The translations under genes were made by a program, and so were the position numbers. The notes under the pieces were generated by a model, which was given only the letters and a program-made list of their open reading frames with translations, was not told the DNA's origin and searched no databases. A stretch of 64,000 nucleotides of DNA from NCBI RefSeq assembly GCF_964204645.1, contig NC_134025.1, forward strand, positions 20,676,001-20,740,000, read 5' to 3'. The stretch is from Tubulanus polymorphus. Taxonomy: Eukaryota; Nemertea; Palaeonemertea; Tubulaniformes; Tubulanidae. Each line of letters opens with the position of its first letter. Position 1 is the stretch's first letter. Shown here piece by piece: positions 5,025-63,955 of the stretch.

Positions 5025-14354
<9,330 letters not shown>

Positions 14355-25700: not shown

Positions 25701-28700
25701 CGATGTAGTGTGATTTGATGCAGTAAAAACCGTTACAACAATGTATATACATTAGTACTTAGAATGCGTTATTTAAGGGCTTCTGTGTGAGTTGAGGTGC
25801 ACTACGTCATCCAATATCGGCATTTCAAATTAGAAATAACAATATTGTGAATTAAGGCGTCTATTTTGTAATTGAATGTATTTCATAACTCTTTATTTTT
25901 GATAATATCTCAAAGATTATTTTTGAGAGGATATGCACTACGTCATCAATATATCGGGGCTTGACTGGTTGCCGGTCAATTTTATTCAATTACATATATA
26001 TTTAAATCCAAAATAACTTTATTGAACTTCAATCTACATCATTTTATTTACTGTCGACAATATCAAGCAATATAATCGTTTTCAAGGCGTCAATAAACTT
26101 CCAAATTAGTTTTCTTGATTTAAGTTGCTCAGGGACAGAGCCAGGAATATGACCTAGGGGTTCACCAGTACCAAAAAAGCGGGTACTAGCCGGTTGGCTT
26201 TTGAAAGGCATGGCCCAACTCAGCTACCTTCCACGCTAGAGTGGTCTATTTGCATTTAGCTTTAGCGGGCAAGCGCACAAACTCGATGTTGGACCGAATA
26301 AGATGATCATTTAGCGTCTTAAAGGCCGGAAACGGCCAGGTAAAATGCTTATCATCCCCTAGCGCTTTATGAGTTCCTAGTTTCTCATCAGTTCTGAAAC
26401 CACGCGCGTCACATACAATGTGTCTAATAAAAGTTCGAATAAAATGCAAACGCCCCCTTCAAGAAATTACTGCTCGTCTTTTGTTATAAAAATCAAAATC
26501 CATGCTTTTATACCTAGAAATCGAAGAAGTTCATCGGCGTGTCCGTAATCCTACAAATATCATGATGAGTAAATTGCAGCATCTGATTTGGCGGTTAAAG
26601 GCACAATTTTTTTGGATGATATGGACATACGACTAAAACCTGACTAGCAAATGTAACTACGACTAAGCCGTCGACTGATGGACCGCTACTGCTATTGACC
26701 TCGGAGTTTGATTTACACGCGAGCTGCCAATAGGAAATAACGTATCGCAACATTCTTTATCGGTGATAATAAAAAGCGAATATAAATCATCGGGGACCTG
26801 TGCGTGGATTATGTTTGCGACTGAAATGTAATGGAAACATCTTTCTGATCGACGCCAGCCATCGATGCAAGGCAAATCCGCCGAGTAGAAGAAGCTGCTC
26901 TTCTGCAAGAATAATTTTTATTTATTGAGTGACTTTCATCCCGGGGTTGTTCCGGTCGTATTACTTGATCTGAACTGTCATCAGCCGAACGCCGTCAAGT
27001 CTTTTGGGGCGATTACTGCCTGATGTACGTAATATCTCTATGGATATATATGATTAAAAGAGTGTGGGTTGTACAAGTACGAGCAGTCACGCGCAGACGT
27101 ACTTCGGCGATCCCTTGTTATGTATTTAATTATTACATTCTCTCAATACTACCGCTAACTGAGGCACTGAAATGAATACATTCCCATGATTATGACGCAA
27201 AACATAAACGCCATAGTTTGGGCATATCGTCTGACGCTTAAGCTGTTCGACGAAGAGTGTCTGATAAGTGCAAGAAGATGTTTTACTAAAATCATATCTT
27301 GCAGGCTCGGATCGGTGCTCGGTTCATCTACACAAGACATAACGTAAAAATCTGAGGGCATAATGATAATTACAATAATAATTTGCATTAAGATCAGTCT
27401 CAAAGATATTTACACTGATAATAAAACTGACACGATGATTACCTATAAAATTAGTTCAAAGGTTGATAATGTTTTTAGGCAAACTATTCCAGGTGAGAGC
27501 AGAGACAGAAAATGATCATCGTTTGACTGCCACGTGTACAGAAATATTACCTTTCAATTGGATTAATTGTTGTTTATTAATTTTGGACGCCATTCGAACA
27601 GAGCTTGCTACAAATCAGCAACTTTTCCGCATTTTGCCCATTAAATCATTGACGAGGAATAGAGAATTAACCGATGCAATGGTTTGGTTGTACATGTGAA
27701 ATCCTTTTGCCACGATGGTAGTGATACAAGGGATGCAAAATCATTCGATTTCAGAGACAAAACATGCGAACAGACTATGCAGTGACGGTATCGTTCAGAA
27801 GGTTTCACATGAATCCAAAATCAGGCAGCTAACATGTACACGCAAGACGATATAATTAATTCTGTGATAGCCTTATGCATCCGCTCATGATCCTAAATTT
27901 CTCGTTTCTCACATTTAACTTTGAGCGAGCATACTCTTGTATACACATGGAAATTAGGACCCTTCTCATTAATTGTTCTATCAGATCACAGTCTTAGCTA
28001 AAATGTCTAATGCAGTTGGCAACATTTGCCGACGCACTTTCGGCACACGACGCATAAATCGCCTATAATCGCTACTAATTCAATGATAAGGGTGATACAG
28101 AAGACTGACTGTGGCGTAATTGGGTTTCAGAGAGCGAAGGCTTACATCGTTTTAATCGCGAACACGGTACCCTTGATATCGAATGATGACGATTTGGCAA
28201 CTCCGCGAGGGGGCTTGATGAAGATCGATCGTTGGGATATCGCTCGTGGTTCTAATGAAATTGTAATCCTTACTAAATCCCGATGGAAAATCTGGTCATT
28301 ATCGTTAACTAAAGCGCCCATAGCGCGTAATAGGTACGGAACACGAAATGCAAAACAGTAGACATTGTTTAGCGAAACGTCGTTTCGTGAAAGGAACTTG
28401 TTGGCTTCGATCGCGAGGTCGGAGTAGCTTAAACAAGAAAAACCTACGACTATGCAATAGCCAATCAGTATAAACGAGTGAATAAACCATTTCACAGTTG
28501 CTAGCCGCCAGAGTACTTATAGAGTACATTTGTCCCGTATTGTTGGGTCATTTTTTTCTCTTTTTAAAAACTATCTGTGATGCGTGTTTTATCATTATTT
28601 CATCTGTCCCTGGATGGATTTTGATAGTTTTAGTAACATTCAAACCGCGTGAATCTCATGGTTTCAGTTATGTAAAAATCATTTCTCAAATTTGCAACAG

Positions 28701-39094: not shown

Positions 39095-39473
39095 AGGAAC
39101 CTCATTTGCAACGCTTTTTCTAGAAATAGGAATTTCCCTCTTGATTTGACGCTTTACTCTTTTACGAACTCACTGCATCCGTCGCGACTCAAGCTGGGGT
39201 TTTGGTTCAAAGTACACCCTACAGATATACTGTAATGGTCGGTTAAATTCATGTAATTTATTGTTTAAATCGAACATAAGTGAGAATTTTGGTCTCGGTT
39301 GGTGTACTAACCTAACCAGCCTGAACCAGCAAAACTAACTGATTGGGTTATATTTTCATTGGCTGCTTAATGCACAAATTTCGGTTGACAATTTTGAACT
39401 GAAAATGGATTAAATTCATGTTACGAATGAAGTTATTCTTTCAGGAAAAAAATACGCTCCCGAACCATCGAAA

Positions 39474-42400
39474 ATGAAGTGTTTTCTCGTTTTCATCATT
39501 GCTGGACTCATCATTGTCACGGAAGCGTACACTGTACGCCATCATACAACAACTACTCCAGAACCACCAACAACTTCTCTAGGTCCCCCATTTTCATTGC
39601 CACCAAGTACTACTCCAGATCCTCCAATACCACCAACAACTACCCCGGAACCTCCAATACCGACAACTATTCCAACAACAGCTAAACCGATAACGATACC
39701 TACATCTATTCCTCCATCACCAACAACTACTCCGGAACCACCAACAACTTCTCTAGGCCCCCCGTTTTCATTGCCACTAAGTACTACTCCAGATCCTCCA
39801 ATACCACCAACAACTACTCTGGAACCCCCAATACCGACAACTATTCCAACAACAGCTAAACCGACAACGATACCTACATCTATTCCTCCATCACCAACAA
39901 CTACTCCAGAACCACCAACAACTTCTCTAGGCCCCCCGTTTTCATTGCCACCAAGTACTACTCCAGATCCTCCAATACCACCAACTACTACTCCGGAACC
40001 CCCAATACCGACAACTATTCCAACAACAGATAAACCGATAACGATACCTACATCTATTCCTCCATCACCAACAACTACTCCAGAACCACCAACAACTTCT
40101 CTAGGCCCCCCGTTTTCATTGCCACCAAGTACTACTCCAGATCCTCCAATACCACCAACAACTACTCTGGAACCCCCAATACCGACAACTATTCCAACAA
40201 CAGCTAAACCGACAACGATACCTACATCTATTCCTCCATCACCAACAACTATTCCAGAACCACCAACAACTTCTCTAGGCCCCACATTTTCATTGCCACC
40301 AAGTACTACTCCAGATCCCCCATTACCACCAACAACTACCCCGGAACCTCCAATACCGACAACTATTCCAACAACAGCTAAACCGACAACGATACCTACA
40401 TCTATTCCTTCATCACCAACAACTACTCCAGAGCCACCAACAACTTCTCTAGGCCCCCCGTTTTCATTGCCACCAAGTACTACTCCAGATCCTCCAATAC
40501 TACCAACTACTACTACGGAACCCCCAATACCGACAACTATTCCAACAACAGCTAAACCGACAACGATACCTACATCTATTCCTCCATCACCAACAACTAC
40601 TCCAGAACCACCAACAACTTCTCTAGGCCCCCCGTTTTCATTGCCACCAAGTACTACTCCAGATCCCCCATTACCACCAACAACTACCCCGGAACCTCCA
40701 ATACCGACAACTATTCCAACAACAGCTAAACCGACAACGATACCTACATCTATTCCTCCATCACCAACAACTATTCCAGAACCACCAACAACTTCTCTAG
40801 GCCCCCCATTTTCATTGCCACCAAGTACTACTCCAGATCCCCCATTACCACCAACAACTACCCCGGAACCTCCAATACCGACAACTATTCCAACAACAGC
40901 TAAACCGACAACGATACCTACATCTATTCCTTCATCACCAACAACTACTCCAGAACCACCAACAACTTCTCTAGGCCCCCCGTTTTCATTGCCACAGAGT
41001 ACTACTCCAGATCCCCCATTACCACCAACAACTACCCCGGAACCTCCAATACCGACAACTATTCCAACAGCTAAACCGACAACGATACCTACATCTATTC
41101 CTCCATCACCAACAACTACTCCAGAACCACCAACAACTTCTCTAGGTCCCCCGTTTTCATTGCCACCAAGTACTACTCCAGAACACCCAATACCACCAAC
41201 AACTACTCCGGAACCTCCAATACCGACAACTATTCCAACAACAGCTAAACCGACAACCATACCTACATCTATTCCTCCATCACCAACAACTACCCCAGAA
41301 CCACCAACAACTTCTCTAGGCCCCCCGTTTTCATTGCCACCAAGTACTACTCCAGATCCCCCATTACCACCAACAACTACCCCGGAACCTCCAATGCCAA
41401 CAACTATTCCAATAACAGCTAAACCGACAACGATACCTACATCTATACCTCCATCACCAACAACTACTCCAGAACCACCAACAACTTCTCTAGGCCCCCC
41501 GTTTTCATTGCCACCAAGTACTACTCCAGATCCTCCAATACCACCAACAACTACTCCGGAACCCCCAATACCGATAACTATTCCAACAACAGCTAAACCG
41601 ACAACGATACCTACATCTATTCCTCCATCACCAACAACTACTCCAGAACGACCAACAACTTCTCTAGGCCCCCCGTTTTCATTGCCACCAAGTACTACTC
41701 CAGATCCTCCAATACCACCAACTACTACTCCGGAACCCCCAATACCGACAACTATTCCAACAACAGATAAACCGATAACGATACCTACATCTATTCCTCC
41801 ATCACCAACAACTACTCCAGAACCACCAACAACTTCTCTAGGCCCCCCGTTTTCATTGCCACCAAGTACTACTCCAGATCCTCCAATACCACCAACAACT
41901 ACTCTGGAACCCCCAATACCGACAACTATTCCAACAACAGCTAAACCGACAACGATACCTACATCTATTCCTCCATCACCAACAACTATTCCAGAACCAC
42001 CAACAACTTCTCTAGGCCCCACATTTTCATTGCCACCAAGTACTACTCCAGATCCCCCATTACCACCAACAACTACCCCGGAACCTCCAATACCGACAAC
42101 TATTCCAACAACAGCTAAACCGACAACGATACCTACATCTATTCCTCCATCACCAACAACTATTCCAGAACCACCAACAACTTATCTAGGCCCCACATTT
42201 TCATTGCCACCAAGTACTACTCCAGATCCCCCATTACCACCAACAACTACCCCGGAACCTCCAATACCGACAACTATTCCAACAACAGCTAAACCGACAA
42301 CGATACCTACATCTATTCCTTCATCACCAACAACTACTCCAGAGCCACCAACAACTTCTCTAGGCCCCCCGTTTTCATTGCCACCAAGTACTACTCCAGA

Positions 42401-43079
42401 TCCCCCATTACCACCAACAACTACCCCGGAACCTCCAATGCCAACAACTATTCCAATAACAGCTAAACCGACAACGATACCTACATCTATACCTCCATCA
42501 CCAACAACTACTCCAGAACCACCAACAACTTCTCTAGGCCCCCCGTTTTCATTGCCACCAAGTACTACTCCAGATCCTCCAATACCACCAACAACTACTC
42601 CGGAACCCCCAATACCGATAACTATTCCAACAACAGCTAAACCGACAACGATACCTACATCTATTCCTCCATCACCAACAACTACTCCAGAACCACCAAC
42701 AACTTCTCTAGGCCCCCCATTTTCATTGCCACCAAGTACTACTCCAGATCCTCCAATACCACCAACAACTACTCCAGAACCCCCAATACCGACAACTATT
42801 CCAACAACAGCTAAACCGACAACGATACCTACATCTATTCCTCCATCACCAACAACTACTCCAGAAGCACCAACAACTTCTCTAGGTCCCTCGTTTTCAT
42901 TGCCACACACAACTAATCCGGATCCTCCCATTCCGACAACTATTCCAACAACATCTAAACCGACACCTACATCTATTCCTCCACCACCTACTTACGACCA
43001 AGATGCACTGTTTCAACGACTTCTCCAACTGTTGAACCAATATGCAAGACGCCATTATTTTTCCTGGAGAAGAGAGTGA
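39474..43079 (+). CDS. Secreted mucin-like Thr/Pro-rich tandem-repeat protein
   Basis: A single 1201-codon exon. The ATG follows a clear acceptor (TTCTTTCAG at 39445), so at least one 5' noncoding exon lies upstream. Residues 1-18 (MKCFLVFIIAGLIIVTEA) are a signal peptide. From about residue 25 the protein is about 19 full and one partial copy of a 58-residue unit (TTTPEPPTTSLGPPFSLPPS...TTIPTSIPPSP), with no cysteine. The tail (YDQDALFQRLLQLLNQYARR...) is non-repetitive, amphipathic and ends in basic residues. Dense Thr next to Pro suits heavy O-glycosylation, so a mucus, cuticle or extracellular matrix role is likely. That is inference from composition; I cannot name an orthologue. The frame stays open through all units because 174 is divisible by three and no unit carries a stop. 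Confidence 0.85.
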   Translation: MKCFLVFIIAGLIIVTEAYTVRHHTTTTPEPPTTSLGPPFSLPPSTTPDPPIPPTTTPEPPIPTTIPTTAKPITIPTSIPPSPTTTPEPPTTSLGPPFSLPLSTTPDPPIPPTTTLEPPIPTTIPTTAKPTTIPTSIPPSPTTTPEPPTTSLGPPFSLPPSTTPDPPIPPTTTPEPPIPTTIPTTDKPITIPTSIPPSPTTTPEPPTTSLGPPFSLPPSTTPDPPIPPTTTLEPPIPTTIPTTAKPTTIPTSIPPSPTTIPEPPTTSLGPTFSLPPSTTPDPPLPPTTTPEPPIPTTIPTTAKPTTIPTSIPSSPTTTPEPPTTSLGPPFSLPPSTTPDPPILPTTTTEPPIPTTIPTTAKPTTIPTSIPPSPTTTPEPPTTSLGPPFSLPPSTTPDPPLPPTTTPEPPIPTTIPTTAKPTTIPTSIPPSPTTIPEPPTTSLGPPFSLPPSTTPDPPLPPTTTPEPPIPTTIPTTAKPTTIPTSIPSSPTTTPEPPTTSLGPPFSLPQSTTPDPPLPPTTTPEPPIPTTIPTAKPTTIPTSIPPSPTTTPEPPTTSLGPPFSLPPSTTPEHPIPPTTTPEPPIPTTIPTTAKPTTIPTSIPPSPTTTPEPPTTSLGPPFSLPPSTTPDPPLPPTTTPEPPMPTTIPITAKPTTIPTSIPPSPTTTPEPPTTSLGPPFSLPPSTTPDPPIPPTTTPEPPIPITIPTTAKPTTIPTSIPPSPTTTPERPTTSLGPPFSLPPSTTPDPPIPPTTTPEPPIPTTIPTTDKPITIPTSIPPSPTTTPEPPTTSLGPPFSLPPSTTPDPPIPPTTTLEPPIPTTIPTTAKPTTIPTSIPPSPTTIPEPPTTSLGPTFSLPPSTTPDPPLPPTTTPEPPIPTTIPTTAKPTTIPTSIPPSPTTIPEPPTTYLGPTFSLPPSTTPDPPLPPTTTPEPPIPTTIPTTAKPTTIPTSIPSSPTTTPEPPTTSLGPPFSLPPSTTPDPPLPPTTTPEPPMPTTIPITAKPTTIPTSIPPSPTTTPEPPTTSLGPPFSLPPSTTPDPPIPPTTTPEPPIPITIPTTAKPTTIPTSIPPSPTTTPEPPTTSLGPPFSLPPSTTPDPPIPPTTTPEPPIPTTIPTTAKPTTIPTSIPPSPTTTPEAPTTSLGPSFSLPHTTNPDPPIPTTIPTTSKPTPTSIPPPPTYDQDALFQRLLQLLNQYARRHYFSWRRE
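39545..42890 (+). repeat. 174-bp tandem repeat array (about 19.5 units)
   Basis: Units differ by a few substitutions, and one unit has lost a Thr codon (IPTAKP). Variants recur in blocks: units 3-5 (DKPITIP, LEPP, GPTF) match units 13-15, and units 11-12 (PMPTTIPITAK, PIPITIP) match units 17-18. This shows duplication of multi-unit blocks. Confidence 0.95.
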
Positions 43080-47585: not shown

Positions 47586-50236
47586 ATGCTGAAGGGTACC
47601 GCAAGACAATGGAATGGCCCGAGCCTCGTGGCCGAAATCTTTGAAGATACATGTCAGAAGCATCTACACGACGTAGCTTGTTACGATGATGATGGATCAG
47701 TAACGTTTAGGGAACTGAATGAAGCGTCAAATAAAATAGCCCTCGCACTGTTGCAGCAACTCAATTACTTTGATCACGTATCTTCCAATCAGGGCGAATT
47801 GAAATGCGTTGGGATTTTCATGGAACCTAATTACGATCGACTTGTTACGATCACAGCTCTTCTAAAATTAAACATCCCCTATGTGCCATTAGATCCAGTA
47901 ATCCCCTTTAAAAGGTTGAAGTTGATTCTTAGAGAAACTAATCCGATGTGCATCGTTTCTTCGACCGCGCTCTACGATCAGCTAATGACGGTCGAGATGT
48001 TAGTCGAAGGTCATGACATCTTCAAATACAGCCACTTATACAGCATCAGTAATCATCTTGATCGGGAAAATATTCATATTCCTTCTGAGAAAAGGTTTTC
48101 ATCAGGGATATCGGATCCGCTATTCTGCGTCCTGTATACCTCGGGCAGCACTGGTACGCCGAAAGGTGTCCGGTTACGCCACAGTAACGTTATCAACCGA
48201 CTTAACTGGCAATGGAATGAAGTACCTTTCAAAACTGATGATGTTGGATGCGCTAAAACCTCACTCCTTTTCGTCGATTCGATCACTGAAATGTTCGGAA
48301 GTCTCCTGAAAGGTGTTCCTATCGTGATCGTACCGAAATCAGTCATCCAAAATCCAGAAAAATTCATATCTGTTCTCCAAAAATATCGAGTAACGCACCT
48401 TATTCTGGTTCCTTCTCTACTCAGAGCTATATTTACCATGATTAAAATGAATAACTCGTCTGATCAGTTATCTGCTTTACGTTACGTAGTTTCCAGCGGT
48501 GAAGCCCTGCCGGTTGAACTTGCCCGCCAGTTCTTTGATGTTTTTCCAACTGACGTAACTCTAGCGAATTATTATGGTAGTACTGAGATAACTGGAGACG
48601 TCACATTTCAACGGATGAAATGTCTATATGACGTCGTAAAGTCAACTGTTGATGATAGGCTTTCTATTGGACGACCGGTAGACAATTGTAACATTTATAT
48701 TGTCGATGATAATCTTACTTTGACGACTGGAACTGGACAATTACTCGTCAGTGGGCTTAACGTAGCAGATGGCTACGTGGATAAGGAAAACATTACAAAA
48801 AACTTTCTTCCCAACCACCTTAATGACGAGAGAGGACACGAATACCTGTATCTAACTGGTGACTTCGCGCGAGTAGTTAACAATATGGTGGTATATGAAG
48901 GTCGTACTGATTCGCAGGTCAAAATCCGGGGCCATAGAGTTAACATGGCTGAGGTTGAGCGGGTTGTTTCAAGTTGCAGGGGTGTAGAAAAAGTTGTAGT
49001 TGTATTGTGCACACTGGGTGACGGAAATGAGGTCATCGTCGCGTTTTATACCACGCCCGATGGAGTAAGTGAAGACGTCATTAACGAGGCCTGCAAGAAA
49101 TCACTTCCTGGTTACATGTTACCAGAAATTATGCTTATTCCAGAATTTCCGCTTCAGGCAGCGACGGGAAAAATTGATCGGGTTGAACTTAAACATATCT
49201 ATTCTTCAGCCAAAAACCCGAAATGTGAAAATTTCGAATTTTTGGACAAAACGACTGATGATATCATGACCGCAGTCACCGAAGTGCTCGGAATCCCGAA
49301 GTCTAAACTGAACGTAGATGTCAATTTCTTCGACGTAGGGGGCAGTTCGATAAATGCGATTAGCGTTTTAGTCAAAATCAAATCCATGGGCTACTCTGCC
49401 GATGTTGCTTCCTTCATATCTGCCTCGACTATAAACGATTTCGTGAAATCCCTGAAATCGGCGTATCAAGTGGAGTCACCAGGTCAAGAAAACACCACCG
49501 ATTACGTTATTGTTCCATTAACTGAAGTGATTGAAAAAAAAGAAGAAATCATCAAAAATCTAGCGGATACATTCTTGAAGAAAGAAGCTGTAGTAAGGGC
49601 AATGGGGATAAGATTTGCCGAATTAGAAATATTTCTTTTATCTTTTTGGGACCATTTCCTTAGATCTGGAGCTTCGTGTGTTTGTCTGGATGGCAAGGGT
49701 AGCGTGATCGGCGTATCAGCAGTAATAACAGGAGAAAGTCCATCAGATATACAGTCGGATGGCATAAACACGATACTCAATTATCTGGAATATGTTGAGA
49801 GCCATAGCGCCGATCGCATTACTGATAATTTCGCCGATTCGTTAATGGTCATGGCATCACCTGATTTGTCCGCCCAAGAGAAGATACAAGTGATGTATCG
49901 TTTGGAACAAACGTCTATACAAATGGCGGAAAAGAAGGGGTACGATGGAATGATTACATGTAATACCAGTCAGTTAACAGCCGTAAGTAAAATGCATGCC
50001 TTTTGAAATTACAACATATGTTATCGTGACATTAATATGGAATGTATTAAATATTTCTCCGTATTTCCTAGGATCTAGCACATGGGTACCTCGGATACGA
50101 AACTGTTGGACGTTTTACGATCAGAGATTACGTGTCATGCGACGAAATGCAGCCTTTTGCATCTGCTCCTAAAGACGCTGTTTTAGTCCTACAAATAAAA
50201 TTGTTTAATCGGAGTGAATTAGTTTCACAGCATTAG
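47586..50236 (+). CDS. ebony-like: Ebony-like beta-alanyl-amine synthetase (NRPS-type), copy 1
   Basis: Coding exons 47586-49982 and 50072-50236 join in phase 0 and give 853 residues; insect Ebony is about 880. Adenylation domain, about 1-550: ATP-binding LYTSGSTGTPKGV (183-195), FVDSITEMFGSLLKG as in Ebony, NYYGSTE (328-334), YLTGD (422-426), GRTDSQVKIRGHRV (from 439) and the catalytic Lys in ATGKIDR (Lys529). Carrier domain: FFDVGGSS, with Ser587 as the phosphopantetheine site. C-terminal amine-selecting, acetyltransferase-like domain, about 640-853: it includes TCNTSQLTA and a last exon DLAHGYLGYETVGRF...DYV like the Ebony tail. Ebony activates beta-alanine and couples it to amines such as dopamine or histamine; the substrates here are unproven. 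The start is the ATG at 47586, shared by all copies; upstream in-frame codons in the other copies lie beyond the acceptor. Confidence 0.93.
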
Positions 50237-51469
50237 CTGGTTAATCGACAGAATGGATTGGGAAAATGTGTAATGCTCCTCCTGATTGCGTTCTCTCGTA
50301 CAAAACATAATTGGTTGGCTTTTAGATTAATAAGGCAATAGTAATGTTTTCTCTATTTTCTTGCAGAATATACATGTATGGTATAACACATGAAACATAT
50401 GAAATTCCGTTAGACTTCGATACTTGTATTAACCCACATTTTTCGTTTGAAAATATATCTACTTTATTACGAAATGAGGAATGAATTGAAATATGTAAAT
50501 CATTTTACAACTGGATGAAAAAGTACCACCCATTAAGCACTTCGATAACCATCATTTAGAAGATGATCCGCTGTACAAGCGCACTCCACAAAGGCAATAA
50601 TAACACTGGTGACATTTCAACATCTCCTATCGCAAGCTTGGTGGCCGGATGCCTGGATCAGAAAAGTATACGTTCCAACTTCTTGAAGTTCATTTGAATT
50701 AAGACCATATTTCCCTTATTTCTGCACAGCTAGACACAAGATACTCACATAAACACATTTTCTGTTTTCTGTTGGTTGCAAGAATTCTGTGTTAAGAAGG
50801 ATTTAAATGTGTAAGAATTTGCTAAGATGATAGACAGTTATTGCAGGATTAGAAACAGTCCCGTGGTATAGAGAAGGATCATTAAGGTGTTCATCGCGAA
50901 ATTGAAATCTGAAGTCCAGTGTTTAAACAAAAAAATTGACGTATTTAGGACCACGTCCCATATGAGGTTATTTCTATTCTCAGTATTCATTAGCATTTGA
51001 AGCTCATAACCCGTTTTACAACCTAAGTCGTACTTCTGTTAGCTATAGCCAATACTGTAATGCGTTTACTATAGTTTCTAGCCAATAGCACATATTATAT
51101 ATGTTAAATCTCTCTTTGGATGCTATTTTGTGACGTCATTCTATCTAATTAATGCTTATAATTTTCCCGCAATAAAGCAGTTTTCAAGCCCATATTGTAT
51201 CGGAACGTGTTACGTTTTCATTTCGAGTCCCAAAGATATAGTCACTAGTCTATCATGGTCGCCCGCTACACTAGCGCCGTGAATGCCCGCAATGGTTGCT
51301 TCCAAATATTTCATAAAATAATGCTGCCTGCCTGGTCGATATTTCCAAAAATTCATGTTTTCTTAAAAGAAAAATAAACACTGCCTGGTCATTTTCAAGG
51401 ATTTTGAAAATGAGAAACAAGGTATCATTTTTGGCCTGATCTAGCTCAGTGTTATAGTCGTGAGCTAAA
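50237..51469. other. 3' flank of ebony-like copy 1
   Basis: Bases up to 50794 are repeated almost exactly at 60876-61433. Bases 50850-51060 align to 55785-55990 in the flank of copy 2. No coding signal is seen. Confidence 0.6.
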
Positions 51470-52804: not shown

Positions 52805-55443
52805 ATGTTGAAGGGTACCACAAGAGAATGGAAAGGCCCGAGCCTCGTGGCCGAAATCTTTGAAGATACATGCCAGAAGCATCTACACGACGTAGCTTGT
52901 TACGATGATGATAGATCAGTAACGTATAGGGAACTGAATGAAGCGTCAAATAAAATAGCCCGCGCATTGCTGCAGCAACTCAATTACTTTGATCACGTAT
53001 CTTCCAATCAGGGCGAATTGAAATGCGTGGGGATTTTCATGGAGCCTACCTACGATCGACTGGTTACGATCACAGCACTTCTAAAATTAAACATCCCCTA
53101 TGTGCCATTAGATCCAGTAATCCCCTTTAAAAGGTTGAAGTTGATTCTTAGAGAAACTAATCCGATGTGCATCGTTTCTTCGGCCGCGCTCTACGATCAG
53201 CTAATGACGGTCGAGATGTTAGTCGAAGGTCATGACATCTTCAAATACAGCCATTTATACAGTATCAGTAATTATCTATATCGGGAAAATATTCCTTTTG
53301 AGAAAAAGTTTTCATCAGGGATATCGGATCCGCTATTCTGCATTCTGTATACCTCGGGAAGCACTGGTACGCCGAAAGGTGTCCGGTTACGCCACAGTAA
53401 CGTTATCAATCGACTTAACTGGCAATGGAATGAAGTACCTTTCAAAACTGATGATGTTGGATGCGCTAAAACCTCACTCCTTTTCGTCGATTCGATCACT
53501 GAAATGTTCGGAAGTCTCCTGAAAGGTGTTCCTATCGTGATCGTACCGAAAGCAGTCGTTCAGAATCCAGAAAAATTCATCTCTGTTCTCCAAAAATATC
53601 GAGTAACGCACCTTATTCTGGTGCCTTCTCTGCTCAGAGCGATTTTTGCCGTTGTTAAAATGAATAACTCGTCTGATCAGTTATCTGCTCTACGTTACGT
53701 AGTTTCCAGCGGTGAAACCCTGCCTGTTGAACTTGCTCGGCAGTTCTTTGATGTTTTCCCGTGTAACGTAACTCTAGCGAATTATTACGGCAGTACTGAG
53801 ATAACTGGAGACGTCACATTTCAACTGATGAAATGTCCAAGTGACGTCGATAAGGCAACTGTTGGTGAGAGGCTTTCTATTGGACGACCGGTAGACAATA
53901 TTAACATTTACATTGTCGATGATAATCTTTCATTGACATTTGGAACTGGACAATTAATCGTCAGTGGCCTTAACGTAGCTGATGGCTATATGGAAAGGCA
54001 AAACATGATGAACTTTCTTCCCAACCACCTTATTGATGAGAGGGGACATGAATATTTGTATCTAACTGGTGATTACGCGCGAGTCGTTGCCAATATGGTG
54101 ATATATGAAGGTCGTACTGATTCGCAGGTAAAGATTCGAGGTCAGAGGGTTAACATGGCTAAGGTTGAACGAGTTGTTTCAAGTTGCAAGGGTATAGAAA
54201 AAGTTGTCGTTCTATTGTGTACACTGGGTGATAGTAATGAGGTCATCGTCGCGTTCTGTACCACAGCTGAGGGAATAAGTGAAGATGCCATTAACGACGC
54301 CTGCAAGGAATCACTTCCTTGTTACATGTTACCGGAAATTATGCTTATTCAAGAATTTCCACTGCAGGCAGCGACGGGAAAAATTGACCGGGTTGTACTT
54401 AAACATATGTATTCTTCAACCAAAAACCCAAAATGTGAAATTTGCGGACAAAACGACCGATGATATAATGATATAATGACAGCAGTCACCGAAGTGCTCG
54501 GAATTCCGAAGTCTATACTAAACGTAGATGTCAATTTCTTTGAAGTTGGGGGCAGTTCGTTAAATGCGATTAGCGTTTTTTTCAAAATCAAATCCATGGG
54601 TTACTCCGCCGATGTTGCTTCCTTCATATCTGCCTCGACTATAAAGGATTTCGTGAAATCCCTGAAATCGACGTATCAAGGCGAGTCACCGTGTCAAGAA
54701 AACACCACCGACTACGTTATCGTTCCATTAACAAAAGCGGTTGACAAAAAAGAAGAAATCATCAAACATCTGGCGGATACATTTGTGAAGAAAGAAACTC
54801 TATCTAGGGCAGCGGGGACAAGATTTGCCGAATTCAAAATATTTATTTTATCTTTTTGGGACTATTTCCTTAGATCTGGAACTTCGTGCATTTGTCTGAA
54901 TTGCAAGGGTAACGTTATTGGCGCATCAGTTTTAATTACAGGAGAAGGTCCGTCGGATATATATTCGGAAAGTCTGAATACGATACTCAACTATTTGGAA
55001 TATGTTGAGAGCCATGGCACCGATCGCATTACTGATAATTTCGCCGATTCGTTCATGGTCACGGCATCACCTGATTTGTCCGTTGAAGAGAAGATACAAG
55101 TGATGTATCGATTGGAAAAAACGTCTATAGAAATGGCGGAAAAGATGGGGTACGATGGAATAACAACATGTAATGCCAGTCAGTTTACCGCCGTAAGTAA
55201 AATACATGCCTTTTGAAATCACGGCATAATACGTCACATTAATATGGAATGTATTAGATATTTCTCCGTATTTTTCAGGATCTAGCACATGGGTACCTCG
55301 GATATGAAACAATTGGACGTTTCACGATTAGAGATTACGTGTCATGCGACGGACAGCAACCTTTTGCATCTGCTCCAAAGGATTCTGTCTGTGTCCTACA
55401 AATAAAATATCTTCATCGGAGTGAATTAGTGTCAGAGCATTAG
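52805..55443 (+). pseudogene. ebony-like: Ebony-like synthetase, copy 2, interrupted by one TGA
   Basis: The exons would be 52805-55192 and 55279-55443, with the same intron position as copy 1. Adenylation motifs (LYTSGSTGTPKGV, NYYGSTE, YLTGD, GRTDSQVKIRG, ATGKIDR), the carrier motif FFEVGGSSLNA and the amine-selecting domain are all intact. In the linker between adenylation and carrier domains a deletion of about 8 nt and a later insertion of about 8 nt (an ATGATATA duplication) cancel each other. The shifted stretch between them reads EICGQNDR and then TGA at 54461-54463. Downstream codons are in the original frame. As read, the product is an adenylation-only protein of 552 residues. It could instead be a young pseudogene, or the TGA could be read through or be an allele. 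Everything else looks under constraint, so I call it interrupted, not long dead. Confidence 0.8.
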
Positions 55444-56464
55444 CTGGTTAATCGACAGAAAATAAATGGGTATTGCTCACTTGAATTATAAGCAATAATG
55501 AACTTTTGATTTGAAATATTCTAGATTCAAGCTAGTGTAATATATTTGAAATGTGTGATGAACCCTTTCATTAACTGCGATAACTTAAGTACGGTACTAA
55601 TACAGTATTAATGAACTGTTAATTTGTAGTATGCTTTAATTCAAATGGTATATACCATAGTCTGTATGCTCATGATATCCTTATGGTGTTCCACAGTAAA
55701 ATATGAATAAATTGGCTACATTCAAGAGGGGGATTTTTACCTACTTTGAAGAATTGGGGATTTTTACCTAGGAGATTTAGTAGAAGTAGAAACAGTTCCG
55801 TGATAGTAGGATCATAAAGGTGTTGATCGTGCAGTTGGAATCTGAAGTTCAGTTTGTAAACAAAACAATTGCGACTGTCACGTCCCGTGTGAGGTTATTT
55901 CTATATATTGACAGTATTCGTAGCATTTGAAGCTCATATTCCGTTTTACTGCCGTAAGTCCTACTACCGTTAGCTATAGCAAATTTACTCGTGATGCGTT
56001 TACTAGTTTCTTTTGATCTTAAAATAGGGATTGGCCGTGTTATTCATTTGATTGGTAGATTTCGTTTGATTTTTCTGTTTTGGTGTCCCTACAAACCCAA
56101 CACACCTGCCGGGAGCTAAACAGGTGGTTTGATTTTGAAATCGGAAGTCTAAGTATAGAATAACGTTAGTTGTGTGATGATTCGCACGCGTTGAATTTGA
56201 ACCGCGGTAGTAACTAATTTTGGGTCAAGGATCAGGGAAAATCAAGGAATTATCAGGGAATCTTGGATTTCCAGATCTGTAAGGTTGTGGTGTTGGATTG
56301 TGTTCTCCGCTAGTTGTTGTTGTTGTTGTTAATTCCACCGAGGGTTAGGATTTAATCCGTATTAGTGTCCTCCTGGTTTGAGTTGAGAGTAGTATCCCCG
56401 AAGCGTACTTAGGGTGTTCGATCCGATACGATGTATTCCACAGACTTTAGAATAATAATAACTA
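55444..56464. other. 3' flank of ebony-like copy 2 with LTR fragment
   Basis: Part 55785-55990 is the paralogue of 50850-51060. Part 56281-56420 is a reverse-orientation fragment related to the LTR at 2690-2805. No gene is seen. Confidence 0.5.
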
Positions 56465-58230: not shown

Positions 58231-60875
58231 ATGCTGAAGGGTACAGCAAGAGAATGGAAGGGTCCAAGCCTCGTGGCCGAAATCTTTGAAGATACATGTC
58301 AGAAGCATCTAGACGACGTAGCTTGTTACGATGATGGTAAATCAGTTAGGTATAGGGAACTGAATGAAGCGTCAGATAAAATAGCCCGTGCGTTGTTGCA
58401 GCAACTCAATTACTTTGATCACATATCTTCCAATCAGGACAAGTTGAAATGCGTTGGGATTTTCATGGAGCCTACCTACGATCGACTGGTTACGATCATA
58501 GCACTTCTAAAATTAAACATCCCCTATGTGCCATTAGATCCGGTAATCCCTTTTAAGAGGTTGAAGTTGATTCTGAGAGAAACAAATCCGATGTGCATCG
58601 TTTCTTCGGCCGCGCTCTTCGATCAGCTAATGACGGTCGAGATGTTAGTCGAAGGTCATGACATTTTCAAATACAGCCATCTATACAGTATTAGTAATTA
58701 TCTCGATCGGAAAAATATTCCTTTTGAGAAACGGTTTTCATCAGGGATATCGGATCCGCTATTCTGCATCCTGTATACCTCGGGAAGCACTGGCACGCCG
58801 AAAGGTGTCTGTCTACGCCACAGTAACGTTATCAATCGCCTTAACTGGCAATGGAATGAAGTACCTTTCAAAACTGATGATGTTGGATGCGCTAAGACCT
58901 CACTCCTTTTCGTCGATTCGATCACTGAAATGTTCGGAAGTCTCCTGAAAGGTGTTCCTATCGTGATCGTACCGAAATCAGTCATTCAAAATCCAGAAAA
59001 ATTCATCTCTGTTCTCCAAAAATATCGAGTAACGCACCTTATTCTGGTGCCTTCTCTGCTCAGAGCGATTTTTACCGTGATTAAAATGAATAACTCGTCT
59101 GATCAGTTATCTGCTCTACGTTACGTAGTTTCCAGCGGTGAAGCCCTGCCTGTTGAACTTGCCCGCCAGTTCTTTGATGTTTTTCCAACTGACGTAACTC
59201 TAGCGAATTATTACGGTAGTACTGAGATAACTGGAGACGTCACATTTCAACGGATGAAATGTCTATATGACGTCGTAAAGTCAACTGTTGATGATAGGCT
59301 TTCTATTGGACGACCGGTAGACAATTGTAACATTTATGTTGTCGACGATAATCTTACAGTGACAACTGGAACTGGACAATTACTCGTCAGTGGGCTTAAC
59401 GTAGCAGATGGCTACGTGGATAAGGAAAACATTACAAAAAACTGTCTTCCCAACCACCTTAATGACGAGAGAGGACACGAATACCTGTATCTAACTGGTG
59501 ACTTAGCACGAGTCGTTGACAATATGGTGGTATATGAAGGTCGTACTGATTCGCAGGTCAAAATCCGGGGCCATAGAGTTAACATGGCTGAGGTTGAGCG
59601 GGTTGTTTCAAGTTGCAGGGGTGTAGAAAAAGTTGTCGTTCTATTGTGCACACTGGGTGATGGAAATGAGGTCATCGTCGCGTTCTATACCACGGCCGAT
59701 GGAGTGAGTGAAGACGACATTAACGAGGCCTGCAAGAAATCACTTCCTGGTTACATGTTACCAGAAATTATGCTTATTCCAGAATTTCCGCTTCAGGCAG
59801 CGACGGGAAAAATTGATCGGGTTGAACTTAAACATATCTATTCTTCAGCCAAAAACCCGAAATGTGAAAATTTCGAATTTTTGGACAAAACGACTGATGA
59901 TATCATGACCGCAGTCACCGAAGTGCTCGGAATCCCGAAGTCTAAACTGAACGTAGATGTCAATTTCTTCGACGTAGGGGGCAGTTCGATAAATGCGATT
60001 AGCGTTTTAGTCAAAATCAAATCCATGGTCTACTCTGCCGATGTTGCTTCCTTCATATCTGCCTCGACTATAAACGATTTCGTGAAATCCCTGAAATCGG
60101 CGTATCAAGTGGAGTCACCAGGTCAAGAAAACACCACCGATTACGTTATTGTTCCATTAACTGAAGTGATTGAAAAAAAAGAAGAAATCATCAAAAATCT
60201 AGCGGATACATTCTTGAAGAAAGAAGCTGTAGTAAGGGCAATGGGGATAAGATTTGCCGAATTAGAAATATTTCTTTTATCTTTTTGGGACCATTTCCTT
60301 AGATCTGGAGCTTCGTGTGTTTGTCTGGATGGCAAGGGTAGCGTGATCGGCGTATCAGCAGTAATAACAGGAGAAAGTCCATCAGATATACAGTCGGATG
60401 GCATAAACACGATACTCAATTATCTGGAATATGTTGAGAGCCATAGCGCCGATCGCATTACTGATAATTTCGCCGATTCGTTAATGGTCATGGCATCACC
60501 TGATTTGTCCGCCCAAGAGAAGATACAAGTGATGTATCGTTTGGAACAAACGTCTATACAAATGGCGGAAAAGAAGGGGTACGATGGAATGATTACATGT
60601 AATACCAGTCAGTTAACAGCCGTAAGTAAAATGCATGCCTTTTGAAATTACAACATATGTTATCGTGACATTAATATGGAATGTATTAAATATTTCTCCG
60701 TATTTCCTAGGATCTAGCACATGGGTACCTCGGATACGAAACTGTTGGACGTTTTACGATCAGAGATTACGTGTCATGCGACGAAATGCAGCCTTTTGCA
60801 TCTGCTCCTAAAGACGCTGTTTTAGTCCTACAAATAAAATTGTTTAATCGGAGTGAATTAGTTTCACAGCATTAG
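58231..60875 (+). CDS. ebony-like: Ebony-like beta-alanyl-amine synthetase, copy 3 (mosaic)
   Basis: Exons 58231-60621 and 60711-60875 give 851 residues with every key motif: LYTSGSTGTPKGV, NYYGSTE, YLTGD, GRTDSQVKIRG, the catalytic Lys of ATGKIDR, carrier FFDVGGSS and the amine-selecting domain. The start is the shared ATG after the acceptor TTATTTTAG (58204). The first third differs from copy 1 at roughly 8% of sites and shares indels with copy 2 (PFEK in place of HIPSEK). From about 59160 it turns copy-1-like. From about 59725 to 61433 it is identical to copy 1 except for one visible change, GGC to GTC (Gly to Val) at 60029, just after the carrier Ser. The open frame suggests a working gene. 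Confidence 0.92.
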
Positions 60876-61428
60876 CTGGTTAATCGACAGAATGGATTGG
60901 GAAAATGTGTAATGCTCCTCCTGATTGCGTTCTCTCGTACAAAACATAATTGGTTGGCTTTTAGATTAATAAGGCAATAGTAATGTTTTCTCTATTTTCT
61001 TGCAGAATATACATGTATGGTATAACACATGAAACATATGAAATTCCGTTAGACTTCGATACTTGTATTAACCCACATTTTTCGTTTGAAAATATATCTA
61101 CTTTATTACGAAATGAGGAATGAATTGAAATATGTAAATCATTTTACAACTGGATGAAAAAGTACCACCCATTAAGCACTTCGATAACCATCATTTAGAA
61201 GATGATCCGCTGTACAAGCGCACTCCACAAAGGCAATAATAACACTGGTGACATTTCAACATCTCCTATCGCAAGCTTGGTGGCCGGATGCCTGGATCAG
61301 AAAAGTATACGTTCCAACTTCTTGAAGTTCATTTGAATTAAGACCATATTTCCCTTATTTCTGCACAGCTAGACACAAGATACTCACATAAACACATTTT
61401 CTGTTTTCTGTTGGTTGCAAGAATTCTG

Positions 61429-62347
61429 TGTTAATTTCTTTGAAGTTGGGGGCAATTCGATAAATGCGATTAGTGTTTTAGCCAAAATCAAATCTATGGG
61501 CTACTCCGCTGATGTTGCTTCCTTCATATCAGCCTCGAGTATAAACGATTTCGTGGAATCCTTGAAATTGACGTATCAATTTGAGTCACCATGTCAAGAA
61601 AACACAACCGATTACGTCATCGTTCCATTACACAAAGCGATTGACAAAAAAGAAGAAATCGTCAAGAATCTAGTGGATACATTCGTGGAGAAAGAAACTC
61701 TATCTAGGGCATTGGGGATAAGATTCACCGAATTAGAAATATTTGTTTTATCTTTTTGGGACCATTTTCTTAGATCCGGGGCTTCGTGCGTTTGTCTGGA
61801 TGACAAGGGTGACGTTATTGGTGTATCAGTTACAATAGCAGGAGAAGGTCCGTCGGATATATATTCGGATGGTATGAACACGATACTCAATTATCTGGAA
61901 TATGTGGAGAGCCATGGCACCGATCACATTACTGATAATTTTGCCGATTCGTTCATGGTCGCGGCAGCATCTGATTTGTCCGCCCAAGAGAAGATCCAAG
62001 TGATGTATCGATTGGAAAAAAACGTCTATAGAAATGGCGGAGAAGAAGGGGTACGATGGAATAATTACATGTAATACCAGTCAGTTTACAGCTGTAAGTT
62101 AAATGGATGCCTGATAAAATTACAACATATATTATCGTGACATTAATATAAAATTTATTAGATATTTCTCCTTATTTTCCAGGATCTAGCACATGCGTTC
62201 CTCGGATACGAAACTATTGGACGTTTTTCGATCAGAGATTACGTGACAAGCGACGGAAAACAACCTTTTGCATCAGCTCCTAAAGATTCTACCTTAGTCC
62301 TACAAATAAGATATTTTAATCAGAATGAATTGGTTTCAGAATATTAG
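61429..62347 (+). pseudogene. ebony-like: Ebony-like copy 4: 3' remnant (carrier plus amine-selecting domain)
   Basis: Homology begins abruptly inside the carrier motif (NFFEVGGNSINAISV) and runs through the amine-selecting domain to the donor at 62094. The last exon is 62183-62347 (DLAHAFLGYETIGRF...). No adenylation domain, start or promoter precedes it; the sequence before 61434 is a copy of the 3' flank of copy 1. One extra A in an A run near 62020 (GAAAAAAACG) shifts the frame before the end of exon 1. Otherwise splice sites and the last exon are preserved. It is best read as the stranded original 3' end of copy 3. Confidence 0.9.
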
Positions 62348-62777
62348 CTGATTAATCGAAAACTTGCATCGTTCCTCCCGATTGCGTTCTCTTAGCTGGT
62401 ACAAATGATGGTTGGTCGGTTCTTGGGATTGAATCGGTTACAGAGTCTTTGTAATAAGGGAATAACTGCTTTCTTGCGGCAATATGGAATAACATGATTT
62501 ACATATGACATTCCGATAGACTTCTATGCTTTTATTACCATATACATTTTTACGTTTGAAAATGTATGTCACACATTACCAAATGAGGAATGAATTCAAT
62601 GTTTTATATTAGGGCATATACACAATCATTTACAACCGAACGAACAAAAGTGCCATCTATTAGGCCATTGGTGAATTTGAACTTTTAGCTTTCAATCGGT
62701 ACACCGTATCATTCAAATTGCATACAAATGTTTTAGACAATATGATAGATTTTAATTTGAATAGAGATAGTCTTTTT
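62348..62777. other. 3' flank of the ebony-like array
   Basis: AT-rich, with loose similarity to the other 3' flanks (GAATGAATT..ATG blocks). No gene is seen. Confidence 0.4.
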
Positions 62778-63237
62778 AATAAGCCTTTTTACAGTTTCAA
62801 GGCGCCATTTTTTGGGTACCCGCCGAAAATGTTACTTAAAAACTAATAAAGATAAGTGAAAACGGTAAAAAGCACGTAACACTACATATAGATGTCTATC
62901 GATCCTGAAAATTTCAAAAATGTCGATTAAAATTTGTAAGAATTACGAACTTTTGAATGACATGGGCAATAATTCAAGTTCGGGAAGACGATATCAATGT
63001 TGATAACTTCACCAGCGCACATTGTAGCATTAACTTGATAAATGAGTGATATCATAAAAAAGTTAATTATCAGCCGAGTTCATCGATATTTTCACTTTGT
63101 TTCTATCTTATTCCAATCCAGAGGTATGAACGAAATGAGAAAATCAAACGGGGCAAAAATAGGGACAAAAAATTCAACAATGCGGACCCGGCGGGTACCA
63201 CAAAAAATGGCGCCTGGAAACTGTAAAAAGGCTTATT
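62778..63237. mobile_element. MITE with about 44-bp inverted ends, relative of the foldback family
   Basis: The left end AATAAGCCTTTTTACAGTTT then CAAGGCGCCATTTTTTGGG is inverted at 63194-63237. The inner part ACAGTTTCAAGGCGCCATTTT resembles ACAGTTGCTAGCCGCCATTTT of the 6302-8056 element. The interior (about 370 bp) is not palindromic. Confidence 0.75.
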
Positions 63238-63595: not shown

Positions 63596-63955
63596 TTAGA
63601 ATAAAAGTCCCACTTGACAATCACAGGATCGAAATTGTTTTTGAAATATCGAAACTATTAAAATTTATTAAAAACCCGAATTTTCGGTTTTATACTAAAA
63701 AACCATTTTCAGTAACGGAAAAGAACTTTAAAACTAAATTTAGATCCATGGGTAACATGATTACGTGGTAAAACTACGCAATGAACCTTGTGATGAATCT
63801 TATGAATCTTGCAATTAATTCTAGTATGAAACCGAAAATTCGGGTTTTGATTAATTTGAATGGTTTAGATTTTAAAAAAGTTTTTTCAATCATGTGATTG
63901 TGGGACTTATATTCTTTTCGTCTCTCGCGATTCATTGCGTAGTTTTACCACGTTA
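63596..63955. repeat. Imperfect palindromic repeat at the right edge
   Basis: AAAACCCGAATTTTCGGTTT (about 63670) is inverted near 63830, and ACGTGGTAAAACTACGCAAT (about 63763) is inverted near 63930. AAGTCCCAC..GACAATCA pairs with TGATTGTGGGACTT. It may be a foldback element or MITE, and may extend past the window. Confidence 0.65.

Follow-up and report, generated by a model that had tools for sequence, protein, structure and literature searches.

Organization of the Ebony-like array

The stretch of DNA analysed here (the window) is 64,000 bp long (NC_134025.1, positions 20,676,001 to 20,740,000, forward strand) and belongs to a 32 Mb contig of the Tubulanus polymorphus assembly GCF_964204645.1, which comprises 268 Mb in 77 contigs. 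From position 47586 onward, Ebony-like genes are arranged head-to-tail and include: (i) C1, which is intact, (ii) C2, which is damaged, (iii) C3, which is a mosaic, (iv) C4, which is a fragment, and (v) C5, which lies past the window end and is given in window numbering (Table 1). Start-to-start distances along the array genes are 5219, 5426 and 7464 bp. C1 and C3 are each composed of one long exon, an 89-bp intron and a 165-bp open-frame last exon, in which C3 is identical to C1.

Table 1. Coordinates of the array genes and of the tracts, flanks and joint discussed in the text (window numbering).
Feature	Position	Strand	Description
C1	47586-50236	+	Intact Ebony-like gene, ~853 aa; open frame, Pfam AMP-binding and PP-binding
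C1 exons and intron	exon 1 47586-49982; intron 49983-50071; exon 2 50072-50236	+	Splice sites and last exon assigned by eye
Probable source stretch in C1	49079-50795	+	1717 bp, 1 mismatch to 59718-61434
C1 downstream flank	50796-51079	+	Absent behind C3
C2	52805-55443	+	Damaged copy; premature TGA at 54461-54463
C3	58231-60875	+	Mosaic, open main-exon frame
C3 own 5' part	58231-59142	+	First 665 bp similarly distant from C1 and from C2
Older C1-like tract in C3	59143-59717	+	96.7% to C1, 87.1% to C2
Recent, probably C1-derived tract in C3	59718-61434	+	1717 bp, 1 mismatch to C1
Single difference in recent tract	60029	+	T in C3, G in C1 (Gly600Val in C3); Gly in C1, C2, C4 and C5
C3 intron and exon 2	intron 60622-60710; exon 2 60711-60875	+	Inside the recent tract
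Joint of copied C1 flank and C4	61429-61434	+	AA certainly common; TGTTAA only if C4 already had GTT
C4	61429-62347	+	3' fragment of an older gene, starting in the carrier domain
C4 parts	exon part to 62093; intron 62094-62182; last exon 62183-62347	+	Last exon in open frame
C4 own 3' flank	62483-62599	+	78% to C1 50377-50490
C5	from 65695; last exon near 72552		Beyond the window

An adenylation (AMP-binding) domain followed by a phosphopantetheine carrier domain is present in C1, C3 and C5; in C2 the carrier domain sits behind the premature stop. The C-terminal 217 residues of C1 (exons joined) match the Ebony chain 6dym_A, residues 13-203 (phmmer, E 5.5e-12). C1 was the sole query for this amine-selecting domain, whose sequence C3 shares. 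Together, the domains and the 6dym_A match make the name Ebony-like, given in a preliminary description of the locus, right for the architecture, by which C1, C3 and C5 are candidate Ebony-type single-module peptide synthetases that would activate beta-alanine and link it to biogenic amines. Six adenylation-domain strings were looked up, some of which we take to line the substrate pocket; five of these (YTSGSTGTPKGV, FVDSITEMFG, NYYGSTEITGDVTF, THLILVPSLLR and QVKIRG) occur in C1, C2, C3 and C5, and the sixth, YLTGD, is absent from C5. No report of a tandem ebony array was found among the titles and abstract openings of the papers screened, and an Rfam scan of the window gave no match.

Genome-wide DNA searches placed 5' gene halves at C1, C2, C3 and C5 only (all four scored candidates) and 3' halves at C1, C2, C3, C4 and C5 only, a sixth match being the last exon of C5. 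The array thus holds one extra 3' half and no extra 5' half, all copies lying within it; these counts are lower bounds drawn from DNA similarity, so that distant Ebony-like genes may exist elsewhere.

The premature stop of C2 precedes the carrier domain and arises from the loss of 8 bp and the gain of 8 bp a short distance apart, without net change in length. Since the frame stays open past the stop to the exon end, C2 looks freshly broken.

The surrounding sequence includes several putative mobile or repeated elements. Retroelement-like frames in the intron of C5 put its last exon ~4.4 kb away; a putative non-LTR retroelement with zinc knuckles and reverse-transcriptase motifs, recognized by eye, spans 68681-71855 (window numbering, beyond the window). 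A LINE-like element at 9091-11089 has endonuclease and reverse transcriptase Pfam matches in the first two of its three open frames, which were the ones searched. Just upstream of C1, 47113-47381 matches 25714-25978, 21 kb away, at 79%, with none listed upstream of C2 or C3. Downstream of C4 are inverted repeats (62778-62825 with 63189-63237, and 63598-63700 with 63819-63915), which are possibly small mobile elements. Two further open frames were noted: one of 1221 residues at 39414-43079, with TTTPEPP-like repeats, is mucin-like by eye and has no Pfam match at E 0.001, and one on the minus strand at 86210-86731 (window numbering, beyond the window) has a putative achaete-scute-type bHLH domain, also by eye.

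A recent copied tract in C3

Base-by-base comparison of C1 and C3 at an offset of 10639 finds the last mismatch before the recent tract at 59717, the first after it at 61435 and the sole internal one at 60029. The tract is thus slightly longer than the match of 59725-61433 to 49086-50794, with one mismatch, that had been described earlier. It takes in the end of the adenylation domain, the carrier domain, the amine-selecting domain, the 89-bp intron, exon 2 and 559 bp of 3' flank past the C1 stop, in agreement with the intron and ~560 bp of flank previously estimated.

Divergence along C3 is stepwise rather than uniform (identity to C1 of 92%, then ~97%, then one difference in 1717 bases). Over 58231-58895, 58896-59142, 59143-59717 and 59718-60892, C1-C3 identity is 92.2, 96.4, 96.7 and 99.9%, and C2-C3 identity is 93.7, 97.2, 87.1 and 87.2%, counted over the columns in which none of C1, C2 and C3 has a gap. 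The first of these segments bears out the earlier observation that the first third of C3 has no special identity to C1. Gene conversion, for which a test had been proposed, was assessed by permutation of the 310 variable sites: the longest run at which C1 equals C3 covers 109 sites and was reached in 0 of 10000 permutations, which gave runs of 46 sites at most. Identity changes abruptly at 59718, with 19 mismatches in the 572 columns of 59143-59717 compared to 1 in the 1717 of the tract (Fisher p 4e-11). C3 is a mosaic gene, and the clearest mosaic of the array.

At 1/1717 (95% Poisson range 0.00001-0.0032), the tract has so little divergence that the copying event is estimated to be very young relative to the between-gene Ks of 0.2-0.25. 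The main-exon proteins of C3 and C1 differ at 33 aligned positions, two of which are residues missing in C3; 32 of the differences lie at or before residue 496, and Gly600Val is the only one in the copied part. The predicted C3 protein is thus composed of its own adenylation domain, except the end, and of the carrier and amine-selecting domains of C1.

C1 had been named as the source of the tract, and its flank agrees. C1 50850-51079 is homologous (78.6%) to the C2 flank at 55787-56011, and the C1-like sequence behind C3 ends at 61434. Because the C1 flank continues past 50795 into this homology, C1 appears to preserve the earlier arrangement, which makes it the likely donor and C3 the acceptor.

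Several simpler origins of the tract were rejected. A retrocopy is ruled out, as the intron and flank were copied and the template was therefore DNA rather than RNA. A repeat-mediated jump is rejected since a genome search located the flank 61135-61433 only at C1 and at C3, and it is therefore no common repeat. A simple recent partial tandem duplication of the 3' half of C3 itself is countered by the identity of that half to C4, which is only 81.6%. Of the template switching or break-induced copying proposed in the preliminary description, DNA copying in place of simple tandem duplication thus stands; a single event and a 6-bp microhomology are not established.

Older exchanges within the array

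The mosaic as first drawn overlooked that the middle third of C3 was already closer to C1 than to C2. Within 59143-59717, Ks is 0.081 for C1-C3 compared to 0.262 for C2-C3, and quartet sites favour C1+C3 by 26 to 2 to 0. Among the 160 variable sites outside the recent tract, C1 equals C3 at a run of 14 (59519-59623), a length reached by 24 of 10000 permutations. By these measures, an older C1-C3 tract also exists in the middle third.

Other exchanges are suggested only. Quartets of the first third favour C1+C2 by 13 to 4 to 1 (13 of 18 informative sites), which may reflect a C1-C2 exchange. A C2-C3 exchange may likewise have occurred in 58896-59142, where these two genes are closest (Ks 0.032), the 15 variable sites split 8, 6 and 1, and only one of three quartet sites supports the pair. 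Outside the recent tract, 968 and 620 of 10000 permutations equalled the longest C1-C2 and C2-C3 runs, respectively, which are non-significant alone. Sequence exchange has probably taken place repeatedly within the array.

The amine-selecting half might also evolve faster, as w is 0.40-0.54 there compared to 0.16-0.25 in the first third (C1, C2, C3 and C4); this idea was set aside, the direct test giving p 0.076 and w for C2 comparisons being raised in the middle too (0.31-0.58).

The joint and the C4 fragment

At 61434 the sequence jumps into the carrier domain of C4, such that the right edge of the tract joins the homologue of C1 49319 and not further C1 flank. The C1 flank reads CTGTGTTAAGAAGG, the joint reads CTGTGTTAATTTC, and the homologous coding site in C1, C2, C3 and C5 reads GATGTCAATTTC (TGTCAA, with a GTC codon). 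The match had been described as stopping at a shared TGTTAA: the stop and the jump hold, the 6-bp microhomology is possible, and AA is certain. Because the other four genes read TGTCAA, sharing of the full TGTTAA would require that C4 carried the synonymous T beforehand, and the true microhomology may be as short as 2 bp (AA) or as long as 6 bp (TGTTAA). The C1-derived sequence runs right up to the joint and leaves no strip of other flank, a result that is robust and is expected if copying and joining were linked or if the joint came later.

C4 has one frame lesion, an extra A in the A-run at 62016-62022; its splice sites are intact. It has 12 nonsynonymous and 5 synonymous private changes, a ratio similar to that in C1 (10 to 5) and C2 (16 to 5); long-standing neutral decay is not supported by these small numbers.

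That the 5' part of C3 and the 3' part of C4 would together make one full older gene, as earlier claimed, is likely, and C4 is thus viewed as the probable stranded 3' end of that gene. Three observations point this way: (i) the half count, (ii) similar Ks, which for the 5' third of C3 is 0.234 (0.155-0.329) to C1 and 0.202 (0.128-0.294) to C2, with intervals overlapped by those of C4, 0.255 (0.172-0.362) to C1 and 0.245 (0.163-0.350) to C2, and (iii) spacing, as removal of a net gain of ~1.5 kb brings the last start-to-start distance from 7464 bp to ~6.0 kb. None of these is proof, as Ks and spacing would come out alike for an independent C4 gene that was just as old and had been truncated by a deletion. 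The identity of C4 is not readable from a tree, since C4, C1 and C2 split as a three-way star (10, 10 and 9 supporting sites).

The age of the C4 lesion bears on the state of the older gene. The substitutions expected in the 932 bp of C4 since the event number 0.27 (upper bound 1.5), and indels are rarer than substitutions. The extra A, if real and not a homopolymer sequencing error, thus probably predates the event, and because a frameshift is hard to place after so recent an event, the older gene may already have been damaged. A tentative extension, which we regard as somewhat unlikely, is that copying rescued a failing older C3: the frameshift would already have been present, C1 would have supplied an intact carrier and amine-selecting end, and the damaged end would persist as a fossil. 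If so, the array would keep working enzymes by patching copies from one another.

Origin of the mosaic gene

The reading favoured here, with more confidence than doubt, is that one older C3 gene was split by an inserted copy of C1 sequence through copying that was started by homology and completed by end joining. The array would have begun with four Ebony-like genes (C1, C2, the older C3 and C5), and the older C3 would have undergone an internal break or fork collapse. Its 5' side would then have paired by homology with C1, 10.6 kb upstream, and ~1.7 kb would have been copied rightwards, intron and 3' flank included. The copied end would have been attached, at a place of scant or no homology, to the far part of C3, starting ~240 bp to the right of where the tract begins, with ~240 bp lost and, on this one-gene reading, ~1.5 kb of DNA gained. 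The products would be a whole mosaic C3, with its own adenylation sequence to about residue 496 and the rest from C1, and C4 as the leftover 3' end. We infer the direction from C1 to C3, the single event, and break-induced or long-tract copying with end joining on the far side. Two limits apply to this reading, in that equal Ks is also expected for a separate C4 of the same age and the strict microhomology is maybe 2 bp.

The same end product could come from two steps, in which an unequal exchange or duplication formed a C3/C1 hybrid followed by more C1-derived sequence, and a deletion then fused the 3' flank of the hybrid at 61434 with the interior of the older C3 or of an independent C4 gene. 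Unequal exchange is common in tandem arrays, the joint is compatible with any small microhomology, and the exact tract end is easily explained by a later deletion that cut a longer copied stretch, or by copying and joining in one event. However, both steps would have to fit into the period in which 1717 bp gained about one substitution, and no trace of an intermediate is seen, the genome DNA search having found no further C1- or C2-derived copies; this course is judged unlikely.

The exact tract end is less easy to explain if C3 and C4 were joined long ago, by deletion or partial tandem duplication, and C1 only recently converted the 3' half of C3 up to the joint. Since homology inherently goes no further than the joint, a conversion tract could end at that point; an older C1-C3 conversion is present in the middle third, and C4 has a frameshift. 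Yet the conversion would have to reach the last base before the joint and leave no own flank of C3, where old array flanks differ at about one base in five (as in the C1 and C4 flanks), and C4 has a single frame lesion and has not gained amino-acid changes in excess of those in C1 or C2. An old joint is therefore considered quite improbable.

An assembly artefact, in which a chimeric or mis-resolved contig puts a C1 segment before C4, is suggested by near-identical sequence 10.6 kb apart in one contig that is judged from the assembly alone, but is very improbable given that the window has no N, the copies differ at 60029, C3 retains its own 5' half and upstream flank, and the contig spans 32 Mb. 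The likelihoods assigned to these three alternatives are matters of judgement.

On the favoured reading of a C3 split by copied C1 sequence, both edges of a recent copying event and the probable replaced end are preserved, such that donor, acceptor and leftover can be read from one assembly. Copies in the array can apparently hand on to one another the half that holds the carrier and amine-selecting domains, with the adenylation half of C3 remaining distinct, and such half-gene transfer could change the amine preference of an enzyme in one step.

Comparison with known systems

The predicted enzymes resemble Drosophila Ebony, a beta-alanyl amine synthetase, in having adenylation, carrier and C-terminal amine-selecting domains. 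By contrast, the genes described here form a tandem array of several copies, with one damaged and one a fragment, and their substrate is putative.

The tract in C3 is like those of ectopic (interlocus) gene conversion between tandem paralogues in that it is directional and near-identical, includes an intron and starts at a sharp identity step, the raised identity being borne out by the permutation result. A canonical conversion tract, however, has homology on both sides without gain of DNA, whereas here the right edge joins a different place and DNA was gained. Kilobase-scale copied tracts with homology on one side and little or none on the other are outlined for induced breaks in mouse cells (PMC5104497). 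The C3 tract is similar in its one-sided homology and kilobase scale; it differs in that the breaks there were induced in mouse cells and the copying here is deduced from one genomic product. The class of event is well known, and the locus is a clear example of tandem-gene reshuffling rather than a new kind of system.
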